DNA from: Paracyclopina nana
Lineage: Eukaryota > Arthropoda > Copepoda > Cyclopoida > Cyclopettidae
Reading direction: 5' to 3'
Length of the DNA: 64,000 bases
Assembly: GCA_019096065.1 (NCBI GenBank)
Contig: JAGUCH010000004.1
Coordinates: 7,502,001-7,566,000, forward strand
Of the stretch, positions 25,142 to 49,246 are shown in pieces; position 1 is the stretch's first letter; each line of letters opens with the position of its first letter. Both the position numbers and the translations under genes were made by a program. The notes beneath the pieces were generated by a model. The model did no database searches. It was given only the letters and a program-made list of their open reading frames with translations, and had not been told where the DNA came from.

Positions 25142-26202
25142 ATGAAGGCCTCATTAGCTTGTTTCACTTTTATCCTATTTCATTTTTCCACTTTGGCATT
25201 GGCCAAGTCCAGAATTTTAGGTGGCTCTGATGCAGCCCCTGGACAGTTTCCTCATCTTGTAAGGCAAAAGGTTTTTTTAAAGGATACACACCACATATCA
25301 ATATGATTCTCTTAAGGTGTCAATTTATGATGCAAAAAATAGTGACAATATTTGTGGGGGAGCCATTTTGACAGACTTCACCATTTTGACTGCTGGTCAT
25401 TGCTGTGAAATGATTGATCAAGCCTTCCACTATCACTGGTCAGATTTGGTCATTAAAGCTGGTGACCTAACGCTGTCTGACAATGCTGGAACAGAGCAAA
25501 CAGTGAAAGTATTCAATCATACCCTTCACCCTGATTACTCCAATACAGTTGGGCCCAAAAATGATGTCTGTCTCCTCTTCACTGACTCTAGTTTGTCCCT
25601 GAGTCATGCTGTCAATTCTAAGCCTTTGGCTGAAACTGAAGTGGAGCCAGGGACAGCTTGCCAATTGGCTGGTTGGGGATCTGACATGGTGGGTTAATTA
25701 GAAAAATTACTGAGAAGAGCTGTTCTCCTTACTGTTCAATATTTTAGTTTGGAGGAAACCCAACAGATCACCTTCAATTTGTAGATGTGAAGATAACTGA
25801 AGAAATAACCTGCCAATCAGCCCATCCTAGTACTTTTGATGCATCAATAATGCTATGTGCAGCTGAAGAGGTATCATTAACCAGTTTATATTAGTCATCT
25901 TCTGAAAGTAGAAATTACATTTGAAGGGTAAAGATGCCTGTGAAGGAGACAATGGCAGCCCATTGGTTTGCAATAACTTGATAGTTGGAATCAATAGTTT
26001 TGGAAGAGGTTGTGGCAACCCTTTGTATCCAAGAGTTTTCACCAAGGTATCAAAGTATACCAATTGGATCAAAGAAAATTGGGTTGGCAATGAACCCACT
26101 TCAACTGTTGCACCAACCACTACTTCAACATCAGGTTCTTGGGCTGTAATGGCCCCATCCTCCATCTTGATTCTTCTCTCAGGGTTTCTTTGCTTTCTCT
26201 AA
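25142..26202 (+). CDS. Trypsin-like pseudoprotease 1, GPI-type tail, catalytic Ser replaced by Asn
   Basis: Exons 25142-25258, 25317-25688, 25748-25870 and 25927-26202 give 295 residues. It has a signal peptide (MKASLACFTFILFHFSTLALA), an activation site at Arg before ILGG, His57 in LTAGHCC and Asp102 in NDVCLL. The Ser195 motif reads GDNGSP, so the nucleophile is Asn. Asp189 and Gly216/226-equivalent residues of a trypsin pocket remain. After the last helix comes a Thr/Ser/Pro stalk and a hydrophobic end (SSILILLSGFLCFL), which looks like a GPI signal with a small-residue site at SGS. The protein should be secreted and inactive as a protease; a binding or decoy role is possible. Introns are all phase 0 and shared with the other five paralogues. 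A polyadenylation-type AATAAA is at 26206. A decayed copy of its 3' end follows at about 26400. Confidence 0.9.
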
Positions 26203-26397
26203 CTGAATAAAAGCTCCATACCATAAACTTCCATCTCCTATTTGTACTCTTTTAATTTTACCAAGAATCTTCTAAAAGTTGGTATAGATGAAATGATGGC
26301 TGATATACCATTTAAGTAATTATTAACTGCAGATGGATTGAGTTTCTTTCATAATCCAACACATTTTCTAATACTTCTTTGAATTCAAATTAGCTTC

Positions 26398-26660
26398 TGG
26401 TATGCGATAATGTCACAATTGGTGTCTATTGTTTTGAAGTGGTTGTGGCAACACTTGATACATGTAGGTATCCCCTTTGGTATCATAGAGTACCACTTTT
26501 CTTAAAGTAAATATTGTTGGCAGTGAGCCAGTTTCAATAACATTATGACTCACAAGGGCCACATCAGGTTTTCTGCATTAAAAGGAACTTGATTCTTGTC
26601 TATGGGCTACTTCACTCTGTGTAACTGAATAAAAGCCAATGACAGTAAACTTCAATTTCC
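26398..26660 (+). pseudogene. Decayed duplicate of the last exon and 3' UTR of protease 1
   Basis: The segment aligns with 25970-26235: both carry ATTGGTGTC/TTGGAATC, then GGTTGTGGCAAC (26009 and 26441), a GTATC-A-AGTA-CA block, GTTGGCARTGA, ACATCAGGTT, and AATAAAAGC in the 3' UTR. Frames are broken by indels and stops. The period is about 430 bp and the similarity continues past the UTR, so it arose by tandem duplication. Confidence 0.7.
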
Positions 26661-27228
26661 TTTCTTGGCTAAGAACATTCAATAGAAATTTCCAGTTAAA
26701 GGGACACGATCACAAACTTGCCAAATATATTAGTTAGATGGATTTTGTCAAAAATTAGACACATTTTCTACAAGCTATTTGAATTTCTTAAGCAATTACA
26801 ATAACCATGCATTTTTTTCTAGGTATTGTTAGGAAAAAGTGAGTTGTACTTATACCACACAAAAGGAAGGTATTGCTCTGATAAAATAAAAATGTTTTGC
26901 CATGTGTTAGATGAATATGGGGATACTGAGCAATAAGATAATCAAAAGTACTATGTGACTCAGCATCAGTAAAACATTTTTGTCTCATATTTTATGTAGC
27001 ATCCAGGCTGAAGAAAAGTGCAAGGTAGATTTTGTTCCTCATAGTCTATTATTTTTAGAAAAATTGGTTGCTGTGATACAGTCAGTGACCTTAAGCATCA
27101 AAGCGTAGAAATATTCAGATAGCATGATATAATTGAGGCTTTTATTTACTTAATTACTCATTTTATGCTCAATTAGAATTGATAGATAAGGGAGTTGAGT
27201 TGAGAACATTGAAGTGAGTTCATCAAAA

Positions 27229-28288
<1,060 letters not shown>

Positions 28289-28465
28289 AAGGCAAATAAA
28301 AAGATGAATAGTTACTGCTGCGGCTTGGCTTTATCCACTTTATTGATGTCAGTGTCAAAACAGCATTTGAGTGCTTATCTTGGCCTTTTAAGTTTTTGTA
28401 GGGTAACAAAGAGATGTTGTGTTGTGTGAGATAATATGAATGAATCATAGATAGGCAACCTCAAT

Positions 28466-29557
<1,092 letters not shown>

Positions 29558-29754
29558 TTTTTTATTCAAGTCTTTTTTACATTGATTTTTTGTGTCATGC
29601 TTAATAATGAAACAAGAATAAAGAAGTTATCTGGAATATAGAAAGTTTTTACATAAGTCAATCAACATTCAACTACAATAACATGACAGATTTGACTAGA
29701 TAAGATAAATAGAACAGAATGCCATTTAAACTAATTGTGTGAGAGAGGACAGAA

Positions 29755-30858
29755 ATGACAAACTTGCTAGCTTTCTTCCTTCTCATAGTGCCATTTTTTG
29801 CTTTGGCAGCCTCTAGCAATGTAAAGATTGTTGGTGGAGAAGAAGCCTCACATGGGCAATTTCCTTATATGGTAAGCTATCCTTTCTTTGAGAAAGAACC
29901 AAGTTAATTTGATTTTACCTGTGCAGGTTTCCATTTATTCCAAAAAGAGCAATTTAACTCATTGTGGTGGTTCAATTTACTCAGGGGAAGTTATCATAAC
30001 TTCTGCTCAATGCTGCTTGAACATGGGTGATTTATCAGGGTTTCAAGTAATTGCTGGTGAATTTAACTTTGACCATGAGGATGGTACTGAACAGGTCAGA
30101 AATATTGACACAACCAGAATGCATCCTAGTTACAATGACTCTACTCATGAAAATGATGTTTGCTTGGTCTACTTGAAAGTACCCTTGGATACTTCAAGCA
30201 ATTTTGTTGAGCCAATTGAACTCACTAACATCCCACCAGAGACTGGCTCGAGCTGCAACGTTTCTGGCTGGGGGCCACTTAATGTAAGTTAACTTTGCTT
30301 CACTAAAAAATCGAAATTAACCTTGCTGCTGTTAAAGGATGGATCACCTAGTGCTCAAGTTCTCCATTGGGCAACTGTCAAAGTAGATGAATTGGATGAT
30401 TGCAAAAAGGCTTATGGAACTTATGGCATAACTGTTTTTCAGGACTCAATGTTGTGTGCATCTGAAGAGGTAAGGCTTTAAAATGCTCAAATCACTTATA
30501 TTGCCTTATTGTGGACTTACAGGGAGAGGACTTTTGTGAGTCAGACAAGGGAGGTCCTCTGGTGAGCAGTAAACAACTAGTGGGAATTGCCAGTTTTTAT
30601 ACAAGCTGTGCAGCAAAATTATTTCCTGGAATTTATGCAAATGTTGCTCACTACAAAGAATGGATTGAGTCCAATGCTAATCAGAAGCCAAGCTCCACTT
30701 CTTCAACATCAACAATCACAACAAGTTCTGTAAAAACTAGTACAACTGTTGCTACCTCAGAAACTTATTCCACTACCACTTTAACTACATCAGAAGCCTC
30801 ACAGCTCGAGCTTTGTCCAATTTTCTTAATTGTAGCTTATATCTTCTCACTTCACTGA
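29755..30858 (+). CDS. Trypsin-like pseudoprotease 4, His and Ser both lost, long mucin-like stalk
   Basis: Exons 29755-29871, 29927-30283, 30338-30469 and 30523-30858 give 313 residues. A signal peptide (MTNLLAFFLLIVPFFALA) and KIVGG are intact. The His57 site reads TSAQCC (His to Gln), and the Ser195 motif reads ESDKGGP, with Lys at 195 and Ser in place of Gly193. Asp102 (NDVCLV) and Asp189 (EDFC) persist. With two of three triad residues and part of the oxyanion hole gone it cannot be a normal protease, yet the reading frame and splice sites are clean. It has the longest stalk of the family, about 45 Ser/Thr-rich residues, followed by a short hydrophobic end (CPIFLIVAYIFSL). A GPI-anchored, O-glycosylated binding protein is a reasonable guess. 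Confidence 0.9.
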
Positions 30859-31789
30859 GTGTGAAATAAACAAAAATGAATGAGCTTGTTATAAGCTGGC
30901 AAAAAGTCGATATTTCAGGGAGGAATGCTATGCTGAAATTTGCCAGAAATGAAGCCACTTAAGGTTAGGAATTTAGATATTCTACAGTATGGCAAGCATA
31001 CTTTTTATCACAGATTCCAATCCCCAAGTATTGGCTAAAAATCTGCTCACAAAGCAGATTTTACTGAAGAATTTTACCTTTTCCAAGTTCCATCAACTAT
31101 TTGCAATAACAATATACTGAGCATGCTCTATTTTAAGATATGAGCCCTTCTCTTCAATGCCAATTTGGATTATTTAAACATTGAAACAAGCCGATTTCTT
31201 TTTAATTTCTTTGATTTTGTCATGCTCAAAATGTGTCTCATTTTGCGCGCATACTGCATGCTCTTAAAAGGTACAATATGAAAAAGCAATAAAAAGGTGT
31301 GCAAGTAACATGTAAAAGTTACTCTTCATATTTCTAATTTCCTAGTTGGTAGGTGACGTTGCAGTAACGAGCCAAGTCAATCTCATGTCAGCCGCATACA
31401 TCTGTCCAAATCATTAGCTGAAATCAAAGGCATCAAGGAATGAATAGTGTTGACAAGTGCGTTGTACATGACCAAGTGTTCCCAAATAACTTAGAATTGC
31501 TTACAAGAAAAGGAAGAACAAGGCAAGAAAAATAAAAGAAAAAAAAATTATTGTGGATTTTGATCATTGGCCTCAAATATTGATGTTCGGTTCAACTGGC
31601 GTGCTAAGTTTGTTGTCATAACACAAAATGTAAACAAAGTCCACGCGGCCAAAAACTTGACTCGCAATGCTGGGTTCCATGCAGAAACTCTGATTCCTTT
31701 AATTATTGGGTGAGCAGCGTACTCGAGATTTGTATTTATAAATCACTAATTGAAAAGCTTCTTTTCATTGGTAATTCCAGGCAGAAAGG
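30859..31789. other. Intergenic
   Basis: This gap lies between protease 4 and the glycosyltransferase. An acceptor (TTCCAG) ten bases before the glycosyltransferase ATG implies a 5'-UTR exon somewhere here. No other feature was recognised. Confidence 0.4.
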
Positions 31790-34700
31790 ATGAGGCTGAA
31801 AGCTTCTAAGCTGCTTTGGATTACAGCTGCACTTGGTTCGCTGCTTTTTTTGGTTTACCATAAAAGCCTCCATATTTCTCTGCCAATATGCTCAAGACAT
31901 CCAGTGAATACTTTGCTTGAAGATCTTTCAGCTCCACTAAATTGCAATCTGATCAGTTCCAATTGCTCAGAAATCAACTGGGAATTTTACACTGAACATG
32001 CAACCATTTCTAGGCTTGAGAATTGCTCAAATTACTTCCAGAAGTTTCCTTCAACTGCGTTTTTCAAGGTGAGTTTTCTACTCTTTCTAAAAGTTACTAA
32101 TTGAGCATTTTTTCAGAGTTGCTAGCCTGACTGAAAGATTTCTTATATTTGCTAGGCCTCTGAGGGAAATGACCTCAAATTGAGTTTTGCCATTATGGCT
32201 CACAATGAGTTGCCTTTGCTAGAAGTACTTTTAGCCTCCATCTTTCGGCCTTATCACTCCTATTGCTTTTTTGTGGACGCCAAGTCTGATAATTGGTATT
32301 TCGAGTGAGTCAATTACCTGACTTTCATAAGACCCAATTTTTTTAAATAGCAGTTTTTTCAGAAGTGTTGTGAAGCTGATCAACTGCTACAAGCTCCATT
32401 TTCCAAAGGTACCTTTCTCATTTGATTTTCAGCTAAAAACTTGGTTGACAAGAGTAACTAACTAATAGCTAATGCCCACACATTATAGATTTCCTTGAAA
32501 GAGCTTGGTGAAAGGTAATTTCCCATTGAGTTAATTAAGCTATTAGACATGGGTTTGGAGGTATGAGGATGCTAATTATTGATGAAAGCATTATTTATGC
32601 CTCGAGCAAACCATTTCACAGTGGTTAAAGTTACCGCTTTCAATCTCATTCAAAATAGGCGCGAAATTGACGTAGTACCTTTTTCTTATAACCGTAAGCC
32701 ATAAACAGGCTCTCATAGCTCCTCATATACTAAAATGCGCGACATGCGCGACATGCGCGACAAACTACTAAAATGCGCGACATGCAAAGCACAATACTCC
32801 AAAGACATATTCTTAAAGTGATTTTAAAATAAAAATAAAACTTAAAATTTCTCATTTTGGCTTAAAAGAGGAGAGTGCTCATATTAAAGCTATTAAAAAG
32901 TGCCAACTTTTGCCAAAAAAAGGCTCAAAACACAAATTGCTTCAATTTTAACTATTATTATTAGTAATAACTAAATGCGTTACAGCTTGATAATTAATAT
33001 AAGGCTTGGTTCACGTGTACTTTTAATGAAAGATAATTCATAATTTCTGGCAAGATTATTCTTCTCAGTAAAAGAACTATGCCATAATTTCGACCGTAAT
33101 CTAAGGTTAACATATGGAGCTCTATCAATGTAATTACAAAAAAGGTAACTAAGAATCAATAATAGAAAAAATAGTATTTTAGGAAGTAGTTACAAAATTA
33201 TTTTTTTTGCATATTAGCTGTTTGTCGTGCATGTCGCGCATTTTAGCTGTAGCGCATGTAGCGCATTTTAGTAGTTTGTCGCGCATGTCGCGCTTGTCGT
33301 GGCCATGGCTTCGACTAAAATCCGCAAGTAAGAATATGGCTCTTCTAGTTTCACCCTATGGCTGCTTGAAAATAGCCAAAAATGGCTCTTCTACCATTTT
33401 TCCAAAAATAGGCTTTATTCAAGACAAATTGATTTGTTAGGCAAATTTTCATCTTTTTCGGCCAATGCACACTTATACGTATATGGACACTTTTAAAAGC
33501 CTAGAAGTCATTCATATTGATGTCATCTCATTTCTTTTCTTGATCTGTTTTAAATCTGTTTTTGTTTTTAAGTACTGAAAAGTTTATTCAACAGAAAATT
33601 CATTTTCATGTAAAAGATAACATAAGTAAAGTTAATTTTCATTAATTTGGTATTTGCATCACTTTTTGAGTTTCTCTCCATTATTGTGCTAATAGCTGAT
33701 TCTGTTGTTGTGGTGGTAGTTGTAGTAATATCATAAGATTTGATCCAGTCAACATAGTGCATGACTTTTGTGTAAACACCTGCATAATCAGAATCAGCAC
33801 ATCCAATGCCATAGCTGGTTATACCAACCAGCTGCCCATTGCAAGCCAATGGTCCACCACTATCACCTTGGCAAGTGTCTTTTCCCTTAAAAGAAAGTAT
33901 ATTTTATCTTAATGTAACTAGAAACAAAAAATTCAATTTACAGGGCTTGATGCACAAACATGAATGTCATTCTTGATTTGATATCCTGCAAGTGTGTATT
34001 GAGATTGACAAGCTTGGTGGGATTGAATTGAAACATTAGCATATTGAAGCACACTTGAAATGGAAGAGCCATCTGGATTAGTCTAGATCAACTAAATTAC
34101 TTTTTGGTGTTTCTTTAAAGGAACAATTGTACCTTGCCCCATCCTGATATAACACACTCTGTACCAGCTGGTATTTCCTTAGTTGCCAAGGGCAATTTTT
34201 TTGCATAATTGCCATTCAAGTTTAGAGGACTTTTTAGAAACAGCAGGCAAATGTCATTTTCTAGGGTACTTGATTCATACGAGGGATGGATTAAAAACTC
34301 ATCTATGTATCTCTTTTGCTCTGTTAAGTCACTAAAGAACAAATTTTGTTCTCCTGCCACAATTTGAAGACTGTTGAGGCCTCCAACACCTTCACAACAA
34401 TGAGCAGCAGTGATTATCATAATGGATGAATAGATAGTCCCACCACACACATTATACCCATCAGTGTATTGCCAAGATACCTATAATTAAAATGAGATAC
34501 TTTGAAGTTATTAATCATTTCATAGAGTCAGAGTACTTGAACCCATTCAATTACAGCTTATCTCGATATGCTCCTATCACATTTTTTGCAACTAAGTTTT
34601 AAGTACTTTTACAAAGGTTGAGAACTCAATAAAAGTAGGCTATTCATAAAACAACAAGCATAAGCTCGCATAGTTGCCTCTGGATTGTTACTTTACAAAA

Positions 34701-37317
34701 TTTGCTCGGCTATTTTAAAAGTTTCTTTTATAAATTGTTTACATAGATAGAAATATATAGTACTTACTTGATATGGAAATTGGCCAAGTGATGAGGCAAT
34801 TCCTCCAACAATTTTAGTTTCTGGAGTTGTTGCCAAGATTGCATTATGGGTGAATAGATAAAAATAGAAAACTGAATTGGGCCACATAATCAAGTGAGTC
34901 AATGCTGAACAACTGCTAATGTGGTTGCCCTGCCTAGATTGTGATTAACTGCTAATGAGGACTACTAATTAAAAAGTATCCTCATGGGCAAAGAAGGAAA
35001 GGCTTTGTATTGTGACTTTTCTCTCTGAGACTGACTTTATTTAATTTACAAGTGCGTTTTTGACTCATCTCAAAGCTTGTGATGTTTATTCACCAAGCCT
35101 GATTATGCCTAAATATAGGAGAATTAAGGTCAAATGCACTGATCCACTTTTGGCTCCACAACTTTCTTGAGAGGCATCAGGGTCATTTTGACTAATCCAA
35201 TCCTTGTAATTAGCTATTCTTGTGAAAACTGATGGATATTCTTGATTGGAACATCCATGGGAGAAACTGGTTAAACCAACCAACTTGCCATCACAAGCCA
35301 AAGCTCCTCCACTGTCCCCATAGCAGACATCACTTTCCTTTGGTGGCCTTGTTTTATTAGCATGTACGATATACTAAAAGTGTCAAAATAATCTTACAGA
35401 ATCTGCAGCACACACATGTTCATCAGAATCAAGGATAAAGTACAAGTCTTTGAAGTATTTATCAAAGCATTGGCTAAAAAGGCTAATGGACAACTCAGTC
35501 CATTGTAGCACTCCTTCAGTCACCAAATATGATTCATTGCCCTAAAAGTACCAAATTCTTATTTGTAATTTGCTGTGAGGAAAATATTTTAAGAATCTTG
35601 CAGTAGTTGATCCTCAGCCAGCTGCAATACATGTAGTATTTTCAGCAGGATCTTCAGTGGCCAATGGCAAACTTTTGACCCATTCTCCACTGAGATCCAA
35701 AGGTTCACTTCCATTGATGATGATCAAGCAAATGTCATTCTCCAAAGTAACACCATCATAGTCTGGATGCATTATTAGCTCATAATCTTCAGGCTTGATT
35801 CTTTGCTCAGATTTATCATAAACAGTCAGATCAAATTCCCCAGCTACAACTTGAAAGTAACTCTTGTAATTATTTTCTTCCATGAAATAACAACAATGAG
35901 CAGCTGTTAATATTAGACGTGAGGAATAAATTACTCCTCCACAAATATTTGTTCTTTGAAAACCAGGCCAAGAAAATTGCCACGATACCTTTTTTGGTAG
36001 GAAAAGTAATACAAATATTTGTTTTATCTAACATTTCCCTTACTTGGTAAGGAAATTGACCTTGAACTGCATCAGCTCCTCCCACAATTTTAGCATCACT
36101 GTTTTCTGCCTTTGCTAGGTTTTTGCTTGCAAAGCCCAAAAAAATCACTATTACAGTGTTCATGCGTCTTGCCATTATGAAGCCCATTGACTGTTTTGTT
36201 TCAACTGACAATAGCTCTTATTGATTAATGAACAGGGAATAATTAATGCTTCCCCTTTTTTATAATTCTGCTCAACTCATATATGTGCATTAATTTTCAG
36301 ACTGATATATTTCTGATAGAGGATAGACATGAGGTCTTTTGGGGCCACTTTTCAATGCTGGAAGCTGATTTGAAATGCCTCAATAGATTATTGGAAATTC
36401 CCAATTGGAATTTTTTTATCAACCAAGCTGCTACAGCTATGCCCCTGATGAAAATTGGCCAAATTGAGGAGAAACTGAGACATTTTGGCCTATTCCAAGA
36501 CAGCATCCAAAGTGAATTTACCAGGCCTGGCATGCAGCATAGATACCAATACATTCACCAATTAATGTAAAACATAATTCTTACTACATTAACATATCTC
36601 ATTTAATTTTTTTTTGCAAAAGGAGACCACCTCATTATTTTGAGAATGTGCCTGGCTTGTATGATTTGATCAATGTTCCAACCAGCCAAATGAATTCACC
36701 TCCTCCTTACAACTTGACTATTTTCAAAGGGTACAAAGAAAATGTAATTTCACGTGGCACTGCACTTTTCCTGACAAAAACTGAGCTTGCTCAGACATTC
36801 CTCAATTGGCTTAAAGCCACTGGCTGCCCAGAAGAATTTTACTATGCAACTTTAGCCAGAGTTAGCCAACACAATTACTTGACAGAAAATGGAAGGATTA
36901 TCCAAGGTAGGTCATTTCCTTCATTCCTCTATTATTGAAGTAGATATTGGTATGTTTGTGCTTAAACTAAGGCTAAGGAAATATCTATATGATGATTGAA
37001 ATTATGGACCATTCTTAAATTAATTGAAAGTGTTTTTATGACTAAAAATGGGTACATGGTTTCTTAATTTAGATCTAAATCCCTACTTTGATGGCACCAA
37101 TGGTATTTGTCCAAGATTTAGCTGGTGGATTTCTTCAGTAGCTGATCAAAGACTCTGCCAAGGTGGAGTAAAACGTTTCATGTGTATTGTGAGCTTGGCA
37201 GATTTACCTAAAGTCTATGAAAATGGTGGAGGAAATTGCTTTTTTGTGAACAAACTCCAGCTCAAATCCAGTGTTGATGCCCTACAATGCCTACATGAAT
37301 TCCACACTGTATCATGA
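31790..37317 (+). CDS. Core-2/I-branching beta-1,6-N-acetylglucosaminyltransferase-like protein (GT14)
   Basis: Exons 31790-32068, 32156-32304, 32363-32408, 36301-36566, 36623-36906 and 37073-37317 join in phase to 422 residues. It is a type II membrane protein with a short basic N-tail and an anchor at about residues 9-24 ([16 protein letters not shown]). A Cys-containing stem with NCS glycosylation sequons follows. The GT14 domain starts at [21 protein letters not shown], continues through [31 protein letters not shown] and [14 protein letters not shown], and ends with conserved Cys residues. Such Golgi enzymes add branching GlcNAc to O-glycans or poly-lactosamine. Intron 3 (32409-36300, 3.9 kb) holds two complete protease genes on the other strand plus an inverted-repeat element. 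The join across it fits the family alignment, so it is not two genes. Confidence 0.92.
32729..33302. repeat. Inverted repeat element with GCGCGACAT tandem units
   Basis: The left arm (about 32729-32786) contains ATGCGCGACATGCGCGACA and CAAACTACTAAAATGCGC. The right arm (about 33210-33302) carries the reverse complement with extra copies. The two arms are about 430 bp apart and would fold back. There is no open frame, so this is likely a small non-autonomous element inside the glycosyltransferase intron. Confidence 0.65.
33568..34887 (-). CDS. Trypsin-like serine protease 5, predicted active, Thr-rich stalk
   Basis: Exons 34768-34887, 34133-34480, 33942-34082 and 33568-33885 give 308 residues. 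The start [19 protein letters not shown] is a fair signal peptide before ETKIVGG. His57 (ITAAHCC), Asp102 (NDICLL) and Ser195 (CQGDSGGP) are present, and Asp189 and [15 protein letters not shown] keep a trypsin-like pocket. The tail has a run of eight Thr, a charged linker, and an end that is aromatic and hydrophobic but broken by Lys and Asn ([18 protein letters not shown]). GPI anchoring is therefore less sure here than in paralogues 1, 3 and 4. It is nested in an intron of the glycosyltransferase, antisense to it. Confidence 0.9.
35086..36187 (-). pseudogene. Trypsin-like gene 6 with an in-frame TGA at a conserved Trp
   Basis: Exons 36044-36187, 35602-35988, 35398-35541 and 35086-35337 follow the family pattern and keep phase. 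His57 (LTAAHCC), Asp102 (NDICLI) and Ser195 (CYGDSGGA) are all present, with Asp189. In the invariant GWG motif, the Trp codon is TGA (35614-35616). The donor after exon 2 has GC in place of GT (ACT|GCAAGA), which works for GC-AG introns. The C-terminus has a Cys/Ser linker and a hydrophobic end ([11 protein letters not shown]). With one stop in an otherwise clean frame it could be a young pseudogene, a null allele or a sequencing error. Start at 36187, or at the in-frame ATG 36175. Confidence 0.85.
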
Positions 37318-46564: not shown

Positions 46565-49246
46565 CTACAGGGCAAAAATAGTAGCCAAAAATAAGCCTAA
46601 AATAGAAAGATTCATGACAGATCGAGCTGCACCCGAACCATCATCATCATCATCATCATCAGGAAGAACGTATTCCACTGTGATTCTTCCTTCAAGTGAG
46701 GCAGTCAAATTCTGCACACTTTTGATGTAATTTTCCAGGCACACATAATCGGGTGGGCCTACAAATCGATCCTTCAAGATGCCAGCAAACTTGAAAGACT
46801 TTCGGTAATTTTGGGTGGCCAAAAAGCTGGGCAAAGCCACATTGTAGGTCTTGTCATCCTCCAAATCACACCACTTTTCACCTTCTCTCATCTCACAGCC
46901 TTCTTTTGTACCCTCTTCTTGGTCTGGACAAATGGTTTTTAAACTTTGGATCCTGTGGCCAACATTGTCAGCCTTGATGACATACTTGACCTCCAACCCA
47001 GACACTTGCACAAACCTAAGAAAAAATAATCAAAACATTGTCATACTATAAAAAGGCATTATATTTGTATTTTATCTAAGGCTGATAACTTTTAAAATTA
47101 GCTTCTTTGAGGGGAGATTAGATGATTTAGCCCTAGTACAAATTTACCAGCCCGAGCAAAGTGAGCAATCTGATACTTTTTTGACCCAATTAATGCCACT
47201 CTTTTTATAGCTGTACTCACAAAAAATTGGTGGAACCATTTTTCCAATAAGGATCAGACTTCATTGTTTAATGAGTCTTTTATAGTCCAATTATGGTTGT
47301 GAAACTGAACTTCCTTGTCTTGCTCTTATTCACTTTTTTAGCTTTATTTTTACCTGTCAGCATAGCAAGTTTGGTTAGGGCAAAGCTCCCTCACTGTATT
47401 TTCCAACATTTCCCTCAAATCTTTGCCAACAATTGTAATTTTGTCAATTGTATTGTTGAATGGCCAAACATTGAATACATCTTCTCCAGTCACTTCACCA
47501 GCAATAATATCTGACCTGAATAAAAAATACTACATTCATTCATTGAAAAAGTAAACATGAAATAGCTTACCTGATGCCACCATTGTTATGGAAAGCTATG
47601 GTGGTGTCATTCCAGCAAAAGGTTCTCATGACATCAGTGAGTAAATTGCCAATATTGCTCTCATGGCTGCCATTTCTCTGCAAGAATACTTGAGATGTGC
47701 CAATTTGCTCTTTGTAAGGCTCCAACTCTTCAAGCCATTCTTGCATTGCCTCTTTGACCTCTACATCCTCTTCCACTTGATAATCCAGCAGAATTGGTTG
47801 GGCAAAAGATACTCCAGTCCCTTTGACAGGTTTCAACAACTCACCCTGAAAATATAGCTATTCAATATTGCACTCTTTTAATTACTAAGGCAGTACAAAC
47901 CATAGTTTGGCTGTATTTAGTAGAATACATTTGGGATACATCGACTTACCTCACTATCAAAATGGAGGGTCAAATGGCCAAGGTATTTGGTGTAGCAAAA
48001 CACTTGTACCACAGGGACAACTTTTCCTGAAGGTTGGGTAATGTAAGTGGGATAGTCTCCCTTGGGCTCATCAATGGAAGGCAAGTTTTCACCAGTGAAG
48101 AGAAAAGTGTGAGAATGTCCACCCACTACCAAATCCAATTCTGGTATTTGCTCAGCCATTTTCATGTCAATTTCATAGCCTGCATGACCAGCTGCTATGA
48201 TAATGCTAACATTGGCCTCATTTTTAAGCCTGCTGGCTTCCTTTTGCACGGACTCAATTTCATCAGCAAAAGTTATGTTTTCAATGTTGTAGCTGCCATA
48301 GACTCCCCTTTGTAATTACATGCAAATTGGCCAGTTAGGAGCTGTTTGCTCATGAGATAATGGCCATAATTACCTGTCTGAAATGATGTACCCAATGACC
48401 CCTATTCTGACTCCATTCACCTCAATGATGGCTGATTTGTCAATCAAGTTGTCCAATTCAGGGAAGGCTGAAATGTCCAGGTTAGAGCCCACCACAGGAA
48501 ATCCACAGTCTTCTACAAAAGGCTTGAGTCCTTCCACAGAGTCATCAAAGTCATGATTGCCCACTCCCATGACTGTGTAGTTAAACATTTTGGCAATCTT
48601 CAAGATGGGCTCATATTTGAACAAAGAGTACCAAATTGTGCCCTGAAAATGTTGAAAGGCACTTCAGTAGTAAGACTCACTGCAAAAAGACACTTTCTGT
48701 AAAAAAGCTAAAGTACCAGTTAAAAATCCTTTTGTATACTATGTTTTTACATAGCTAATGTGAAAATCATTGAAAAACATCTTTTTAGAAAAAAACCCTG
48801 CTTAAATGTTACAGTAAAAGTGGTAAAAACTTATTTTATTAATTGTATGTACTAATAACTGCCCAAAAAAGACACCGTAAAAACTAAATTTTGCTCAAAA
48901 AACGTATGGAAAAGTTTTCTATCTCCACCTGATAATAGTCTCCAGCATTCAAGAAAATGGACTCAAAGTTTGAGTTGTCTCTGATTTCATCCACTTTGGT
49001 CTTCATCCTTGCCAAGCCACCAAAGCACTTTTTCTCCTCAGCTTGCTCTTTATGGCATCTGCCCACATTTTCATTCACTTCTTCAAAGTGAGCATGAATA
49101 TCATTGATGTGAATCAACTCTAGTGACAAAAACGGGTCTTCTTCTACTGACCTTCCAAAGCAAATTTGGCCATAATTTCCCAGTAGCAAGAAAGCTGTAA
49201 GTGCTAGGAAACAAGGCAATGATGTCCATGCTGTGAGAGGCCCCAT
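46565..49246 (-). CDS. Ecto-5'-nucleotidase / apyrase family enzyme, GPI-type
   Basis: Exons 48929-49246, 48374-48642, 47950-48307, 47571-47845, 47354-47515 and 46565-47015 give 610 residues. After a signal peptide (CFLALTAFLLLGNYG) comes the metallophosphatase domain with the dimetal ligands: LIHINDIHAHFEE, GDYYQ, GNHDFDD, AAGHAGYE and GGHSHTF. The C-terminal substrate-binding domain begins near GELLKP and contains HNNGGIRSDIIAGE. The tail has seven Asp in a row (a CAT repeat at 46638-46661), then Gly-Ser-Gly-Ala and a hydrophobic end (MNLSILGLFLATIFAL), a good GPI signal. It should hydrolyse extracellular AMP or other nucleotides at the cell surface. AMP versus ATP/ADP preference cannot be read from the sequence. 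Confidence 0.94.

Follow-up and report, generated by a model that had tools for sequence, protein, structure and literature searches.

Prostasin (PRSS8) and testisin (PRSS21) are mammalian extracellular trypsin-like proteases with a glycosylphosphatidylinositol (GPI)-type C-terminus, and GPI-anchored trypsins, well known in mammals, have only lately been proposed in an insect. In the beetle Tenebrio molitor, GPI-like tails were described "for the first time" in insects, in a clade made up of putative trypsins and a single inactive homologue (PMC11172050, section 2.8, 2024). The passages of that paper used here cite prostasin and testisin as GPI-type; they name SerP76, SerP84, SerP104 and SerP125 both as trypsins with a C-terminal transmembrane domain and feeding-stage transcripts and as bearers of GPI-like tails, and they state that Phobius confidently calls some such tails transmembrane. 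Here we describe a tandem array of six trypsin genes (A–F) in the copepod Paracyclopina nana, most of which encode a C-terminal hydrophobic tail that is probably a GPI signal. The array occupies positions 25142–36187 of the window, i.e., the whole 64,000-nucleotide stretch analysed (contig 4:7502001–7566000 of a 92 Mb genome in 10 contigs). Coordinates without a contig follow the numbering of the window.

Passages on the salmon louse report that its gut cells express trypsins thought to be digestive, and those of PMC2689223 describe a Cys59/Cys104 bridge conserved in the earlier described single-domain trypsins of this copepod. In Oithona nana, 16 trypsins are among the male-specific genes, and the term GPI is not used in the passages of PMC8301441 considered. 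NetGPI was run on salmon louse gland enzymes in PMC10828956, the considered passages of which hold no GPI result for its serine protease; in those of PMC3547057 (crab) and PMC11083476 (annelid), GPI appears only for other proteins or in references. Among the papers listed by the literature searches, most of which were not opened, there was no report of GPI-tailed trypsins in copepods. As far as the literature was searched, such trypsins are new to copepods and of a kind already known.

The genes, read from the DNA with their exons joined, and the associated features are as follows.

25142–26202, + strand: gene A, predicted pseudoprotease homologue of trypsin; exons 25142–25258, 25317–25688, 25748–25870 and 25927–26202.
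26071–26199, + strand: Thr/Ser stalk and hydrophobic tail (last 22 residues) of gene A; passes the GPI rule described below.
About 26394–26660, + strand: decayed duplicate of exon 4 of gene A, with its CTGAATAAAAGC 3' end; placed by alignment, boundaries approximate.
27229–28288, + strand: gene B, intact trypsin with a hydrophobic tail and no stalk; exons 27229–27345, 27419–27790, 27853–27987 and 28046–28288.
28493–29557, + strand: gene C, intact trypsin with a short Pro/Thr stalk and a hydrophobic tail; exons 28493–28615, 28670–29035, 29092–29223 and 29279–29557 (an alternative in-frame ATG is possible 27 nt upstream).
29755–30858, + strand: gene D, predicted pseudoprotease with a Ser/Thr stalk and a hydrophobic tail; exons 29755–29871, 29927–30283, 30338–30469 and 30523–30858.
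33568–34887, − strand: gene E, intact trypsin with a Thr-run stalk and a C-terminus failing the GPI rule; exons 34887–34768, 34480–34133, 34082–33942 and 33885–33568.
35086–36187, − strand: gene F, probable pseudogene or base error, from a splice model; its tail codons pass the GPI rule.

Each gene has four exons, and all 18 introns of the splice models are in phase 0 at three sites common to the six genes: after the FP(Y/H)x that ends exon 1, shortly 3' of GWG, and just before the exon carrying Asp189 and Ser195. The earlier note on this DNA had proposed six paralogues of precisely this structure, and the proposal stands with the proviso that F is not intact as assembled. Introns are bounded by GT-AG in 17/18 cases and by GC-AG in intron 2 of F; they measure 50–73 nt, except for intron 1 of E (287 nt). 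Chance open reading frames were rejected as an explanation, since splice sites, phases and residues are concordant across the six genes. The Pfam Trypsin domain (PF00089) scores above cut-off in all five members with intact frames (A–E). The whole-length identity of these five proteins is 34–42%, and identity over the domain reaches 50% at most (B vs. E); the array is therefore old.

The extensions that follow the domain in A–E comprise 43, 32, 44, 63 and 57 residues, respectively. When the last 22 residues are subtracted from the extension, Ser and Thr account for 9/21 residues of the remaining linker in A, 3/10 in B, 6/22 in C, 26/41 in D (the longest stalk of the window), 15/35 in E, and 3/13 in F. 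Thus defined, a Ser/Thr(/Pro)-rich stalk is present in four of the six members (A, C, D and E), in agreement with the earlier note, which had assigned stalks to most of them. B and F are without a stalk, and short polar or charged residues follow their hydrophobic stretch.

Tails were assessed by a home-made GPI rule, which calls for S, N, G, A, D or C at the omega site, a residue other than P or W at omega+1, G, A, S or T at omega+2, 15–32 residues after omega, an uncharged core of 11 residues with a mean Kyte-Doolittle value of at least 1.5, and no more than 6 residues beyond the core. A, B, C, D and F pass (5/6, or 4/5 of the intact members). The GPI-like hydrophobic C-terminus previously ascribed to all six holds for these five and fails for E, the C-terminus of which is a Lys-bearing, interrupted hydrophobic stretch; by this rough rule, the GPI call is positive for most members rather than absent from most of them. 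Inspection by eye for alternative splicing that might improve the tail of E found none.

Poly(A) signals were scanned from −30 to +200 nt around the stop codons. Counted from the first base past the stop, A(A/T)TAAA begins at +3, +6, +59, +6, −21 and −5 in A–F, and at +12, −5 and −1 in three tailed genes of contig 7 described below, while AATAAA is expected in about 0.06 of the 75-nt stretches of the window; within the same range, a contig-1 copy (L086) has no A(A/T)TAAA. Because a poly(A) signal lies at or near all six stops of the array (−21 to +59 nt), additional 3' exons past the tail, including the replacement exons that had been raised as a possible refutation, appear unlikely. The possibility that the tail is a misread intron was rejected as unlikely on the same evidence.

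The array combines active and inactive members, as had been claimed. The triad H57/D102/S195 and the pocket residues D189/G216/G226 are present in B, C and E. A carries S195N and G226R, and D carries H57Q, G193S, S195K and G216Y; on the strength of these losses both are read as pseudoproteases. Both retain the frame, the splice sites, the K/R-I activation site and the tail. That the frame, the activation site and the tail are kept hints at a role in binding; tandem decay is a live alternative, exemplified by F and by the exon remnant at about 26394–26660. In F the triad codons are present, but positions 216 and 226 are both Ser, exon 2 has an in-frame TGA (35616–35614) where its kin have the Trp of GWG, and a GC donor follows 35602. 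As assembled, F is not intact, probably owing either to pseudogenization or to a base error. Hydrophobic N-termini, which may be signal peptides, were noted by eye in the translated gene models. A separate observation concerns Cys201, which is replaced in B (Phe) and D (Ser) with Cys136 kept, so that one cysteine is left without a partner; in all other respects B is an intact enzyme.

The background against which the tails should be viewed was obtained from 71 trypsin regions of this genome, taken from among the matches listed by a Pfam search and a search with gene C. In these, 57 terminal exons were recognised by motif and translated with no splicing applied; when a similar motif was used, 15 of the 71 regions yielded no terminal exon. 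The chain stops within 14 residues of the domain's last helix in 41 of the 57 exons, and the GPI rule is passed by three, two of which are on contig 7 (L029) and one on contig 4 (L061). The L061 tail was set aside as probably intronic, being preceded by a donor-like GTAAG site and having no AATAAA in the stretch examined. In view of these counts, the plain secreted trypsin is the norm in this genome and the hydrophobic tail is special to the tailed family; the tail is more than chance and far from the trypsin background of the genome. Two further trypsin loci deserve mention: an untailed tandem array about 130 kb from the cluster (L031, contig 4:7667300–7677200), with ends such as ...DWIAENSF, and a gene (L041, contig 4:654500–656400) in which LNR-like cysteine repeats and long linkers of Thr/Pro come after a trypsin, recalling the trypsin-LNR proteins described for Oithona nana in the passages of PMC8301441 considered.

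The family is wider than the six genes originally proposed. All six are in the window, to which must be added the decayed copy of A exon 4, a sister cluster on contig 7 and the contig-1 copy. The sister cluster (contig 7:5984500–5994400, L029) holds two apparently complete tailed genes and a degenerate one (L029 4301–5142, + strand), which lies on the other strand from the two tailed trypsins, has Glu in place of His57 and lacks GDSGG. In hand-made models, the two complete genes appear to have additional introns past the signal peptide and within the second domain exon, and all three contig-7 tails pass the GPI rule. The contig-1 copy is more distant; it has a hydrophobic tail that fails the rule.

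Relatives outside this genome were collected by a profile search, the best 120 of 159 matches of which led to the JGI protein P0003, which has the plan of the window genes, including a Thr stalk. A search with the P0003 domain added, among the best 120 of 6246 matches, seven further JGI proteins that are close to it, together with P0138, which carries the label Oithona nana. The nine outside kin are accordingly P0138 and the JGI proteins P0003, P0121, P0122, P0123, P0125, P0129, P0131 and P0149; P0138 is the only one with a copepod name. A domain end could be read in 211 of the 237 proteins collected, and a hydrophobic tail was seen in 16 of these: the nine kin, P0033, P0083, P0167, P0171, P0190, P0206 and P0234 (a rough count, in that the criterion misplaces the domain end of C, giving an extension of 4 instead of 44). 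P0171 and P0206 represent a further JGI type of tailed trypsin (EHSGSNHF... tail), of which P0171 was included in the trees below and P0206 was not. The last 22 residues are hydrophobic in all nine kin, six of which pass the GPI rule; their linkers range from 4 to 78 residues, and three have a Thr-rich stalk, with a linker of up to 78 residues. The 14 core rows (five window genes and nine kin), with whole-protein identities down to 31%, thus include 13 with a hydrophobic tail, E being the exception, and 10 that pass the rule.

Trees were built from the domain only, the first with 46 rows and the second with 40, after six long-branch rows had been dropped (own_L040, own_L043, own_L046, own_L048, own_L051 and C1_L086). 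The trees do not include gene F or the degenerate gene of contig 7, the contig-7 sequences were exon translations joined by hand, and P0164 and own_L043 were trimmed short in the first tree. The core rows form one group in both trees (96/92 and 95/91, respectively). The five window genes group at 96/73 in the first tree and do not form a single group in the second. The two contig-7 genes fall outside the tailed clade, without a resolved position, in the first tree and join that clade as sisters at 90/85, not starred, in the second. For the second tree, a clade with P0171 added is not rejected (p-AU 0.494) and a clade of window and contig-7 genes alone is borderline (p-AU 0.071). Because the nine outside kin, which the domain-only trees join with the window genes, carry hydrophobic tails, the tail predates the window cluster; the simplest reading of the sequences is a single gain of the tail in copepods, followed by expansion in each lineage. 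Cys59 and Cys104 are both found in A–E, in the N-terminal piece of F, in the two contig-7 genes and in P0008 and P0185, and neither is found in Penaeus P0232, the only decapod row checked.

In our opinion, the array is probably best explained as a set of tandem copepod single-domain trypsins with an ancestrally gained hydrophobic tail, which serves as a GPI signal in most members. Gene structure, tails, residues and kinship are the observed part of this explanation; GPI attachment, glycosylation, location and what the dead copies do are inferred. The following course can be envisaged. An ancestor of the array would have gained the tail. The zymogen would enter the secretory pathway, the tail would be removed and a GPI put in its place, and activation would take place at K/R-I. 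The trypsin domain would then be displayed on the outside of the cell, and some members would be raised on a stalk that is rich in Ser/Thr and presumably O-glycosylated. B and C, and probably E, would act there as K/R-cleaving enzymes; A and D, no longer catalytic and with part of the pocket gone, are probably kept as binders at the surface; E may have lost its anchor, and F would be dead as assembled. A feeding or gut epithelium is proposed as the most likely site, with the digestive-type trypsin held at the membrane of its apical face. Insect midgut aminopeptidases are GPI-anchored on Thr-rich stalks, an analogy for which our literature search found no paper. Taken by itself, the feeding or gut placement has, in our estimation, slightly less than an even chance of being correct; it is suggested because of the copepod single-domain type, the salmon louse gut trypsins and the feeding-stage transcripts of the beetle.

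Several points weigh against this explanation. E fails not only the GPI rule but also the simpler hydrophobic-tail criterion, F is broken by its in-frame stop, and the gut placement rests on analogy. Among the kin, P0003, P0123 and P0129 fail the rule, and eight of the nine carry a Lys or Arg where the tail begins, several with a second Lys near the end; such tails appear to fit a GPI signal less well. The rule itself is rough in both directions, as its controls indicate: it was passed by just three of five known GPI signals, and by 2–21% of shuffled window tails; P0190, labelled "protease serine 21", has a hydrophobic tail yet fails. An internal control passes, namely a 5'-nucleotidase-like C-terminal exon identified by Pfam at 46565–47029 (− strand), which has an acidic run and a GPI-like tail.

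The GPI-like tails, together with the coexistence of active and inactive members, led the earlier note to suggest a surface system of proteases and pseudoproteases; that they form one working system is conjecture. In its specific form, a regulatory one, A and D would compete for substrates or bind or present the active members, with signalling of the prostasin kind. It should be noted that this would add to the preferred explanation and is compatible with it, so that the likelihoods given here are not parts of one whole. The dead copies do keep frame, splice sites, K/R-I site and tail, and inactive or doubtful copies recur (P0131 with S195G, P0129 with D102N, and the degenerate contig-7 gene); however, tandem birth and death would also be expected to yield dead copies, examples being F and the decayed exon at about 26394–26660, and we regard a regulatory system as unlikely. 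A broader proposition is that copepods evolved GPI-anchored trypsins once, with freely varying mucin-like stalks and repeated dead but still anchored copies (A, D, the contig-7 gene, JGI P0131 and perhaps P0129), making up a tunable surface system; this we advance tentatively, as a possibility that we doubt. If true, active and dead members would share one membrane in one of the sea's most abundant animal groups.

That the tails are single type I transmembrane spans with almost no cytoplasmic part, rather than GPI signals, we consider distinctly unlikely. In its favour are the hydrophobic stretches themselves, the confident Phobius calls of some Tenebrio tails as transmembrane in the passages of PMC11172050 considered, the short polar or charged residues that follow the stretch in B and F, and the Lys found in many kin tails. 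Against it, the core of A, B, C, D and F is followed by no more than six residues and preceded by a small-residue site and a spacer, and no basic cytoplasmic tail is seen by eye. The notion that these are ordinary secreted digestive trypsins with incidental hydrophobic ends, cleaved or tolerated, accords with the ordinary type of the domain and with the degraded tail of E, which is perhaps dispensable, but is improbable given that 41/57 other terminal exons stop within 14 residues of the domain and that 13 of the 14 core rows have retained a hydrophobic tail despite identities down to 31%.

Some features near the array should also be recorded. Core-2/I-branching enzymes branch mucin-type O-glycans, and a fragment resembling such a glycosyltransferase lies beside the cluster at 36543–36938 (+ strand; Pfam Branch, 19 bits, below the cut-off of 23.4); its position next to genes for stalked proteins may be a coincidence. 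Between D and E, an open reading frame at 31775–32104 (+ strand) has no Pfam match and a start like that of a type II membrane protein. The sole tandem repeat found in the cluster, a 9-bp array at 32735–32762, is unrelated. The window also holds an IFT70 gene (587 residues joined, 5' end missing), which is 90% identical to that of Tigriopus californicus, 88% to Lepeophtheirus salmonis, 89% to a "Tk" entry that we take to be Tigriopus kingsejongensis, 92% to an entry of merc source, 83–86% to cockroaches and termites, and 83% to a shrimp; these values place the animal among the copepods.

A copepod clade with an apparently single origin of the tail, stalks of varying length and repeated dead copies would offer an invertebrate test case for the effect of membrane tethering on a digestive-type trypsin and for the question whether anchored pseudoproteases are retained for a function; its practical use is modest, namely improved annotation of proteases in copepods and a clean test set. 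The nearest described systems agree with it in different respects. Prostasin and testisin resemble most of the window genes in that a C-terminus of GPI type, putative in the latter, comes after a trypsin-like domain; in trees without a vertebrate prostasin or testisin row, the window genes fall among copepod trypsins. Prostasin has a Cys in its activation peptide, and by eye the short activation peptides of the window genes have none. Copepod single-domain trypsins, i.e., those of Lepeophtheirus and rows P0008 and P0185 (presumably Tigriopus, from their Tk/TCALIF labels), share the domain, the K/R-I site, Cys59 and Cys104 with the window genes; unlike these, P0008 and P0185 are tailless, with just a few residues beyond the domain. 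Oithona nana P0138 and the eight JGI proteins share both clade and plan; the JGI rows differ in being an expansion of their own, and K/R-P stands at the start of the tail in eight of the nine kin and not in the window genes. Tenebrio clade A2 likewise comprises putative trypsins with a hydrophobic, GPI-like C-terminal extension, a propeptide without a regulatory domain and one inactive homologue; it is from a beetle rather than a copepod, and stalks and tandem arrangement are unmentioned in the passages of PMC11172050 considered. The description of a tandem invertebrate family of this kind as unusual is weakened by that clade.

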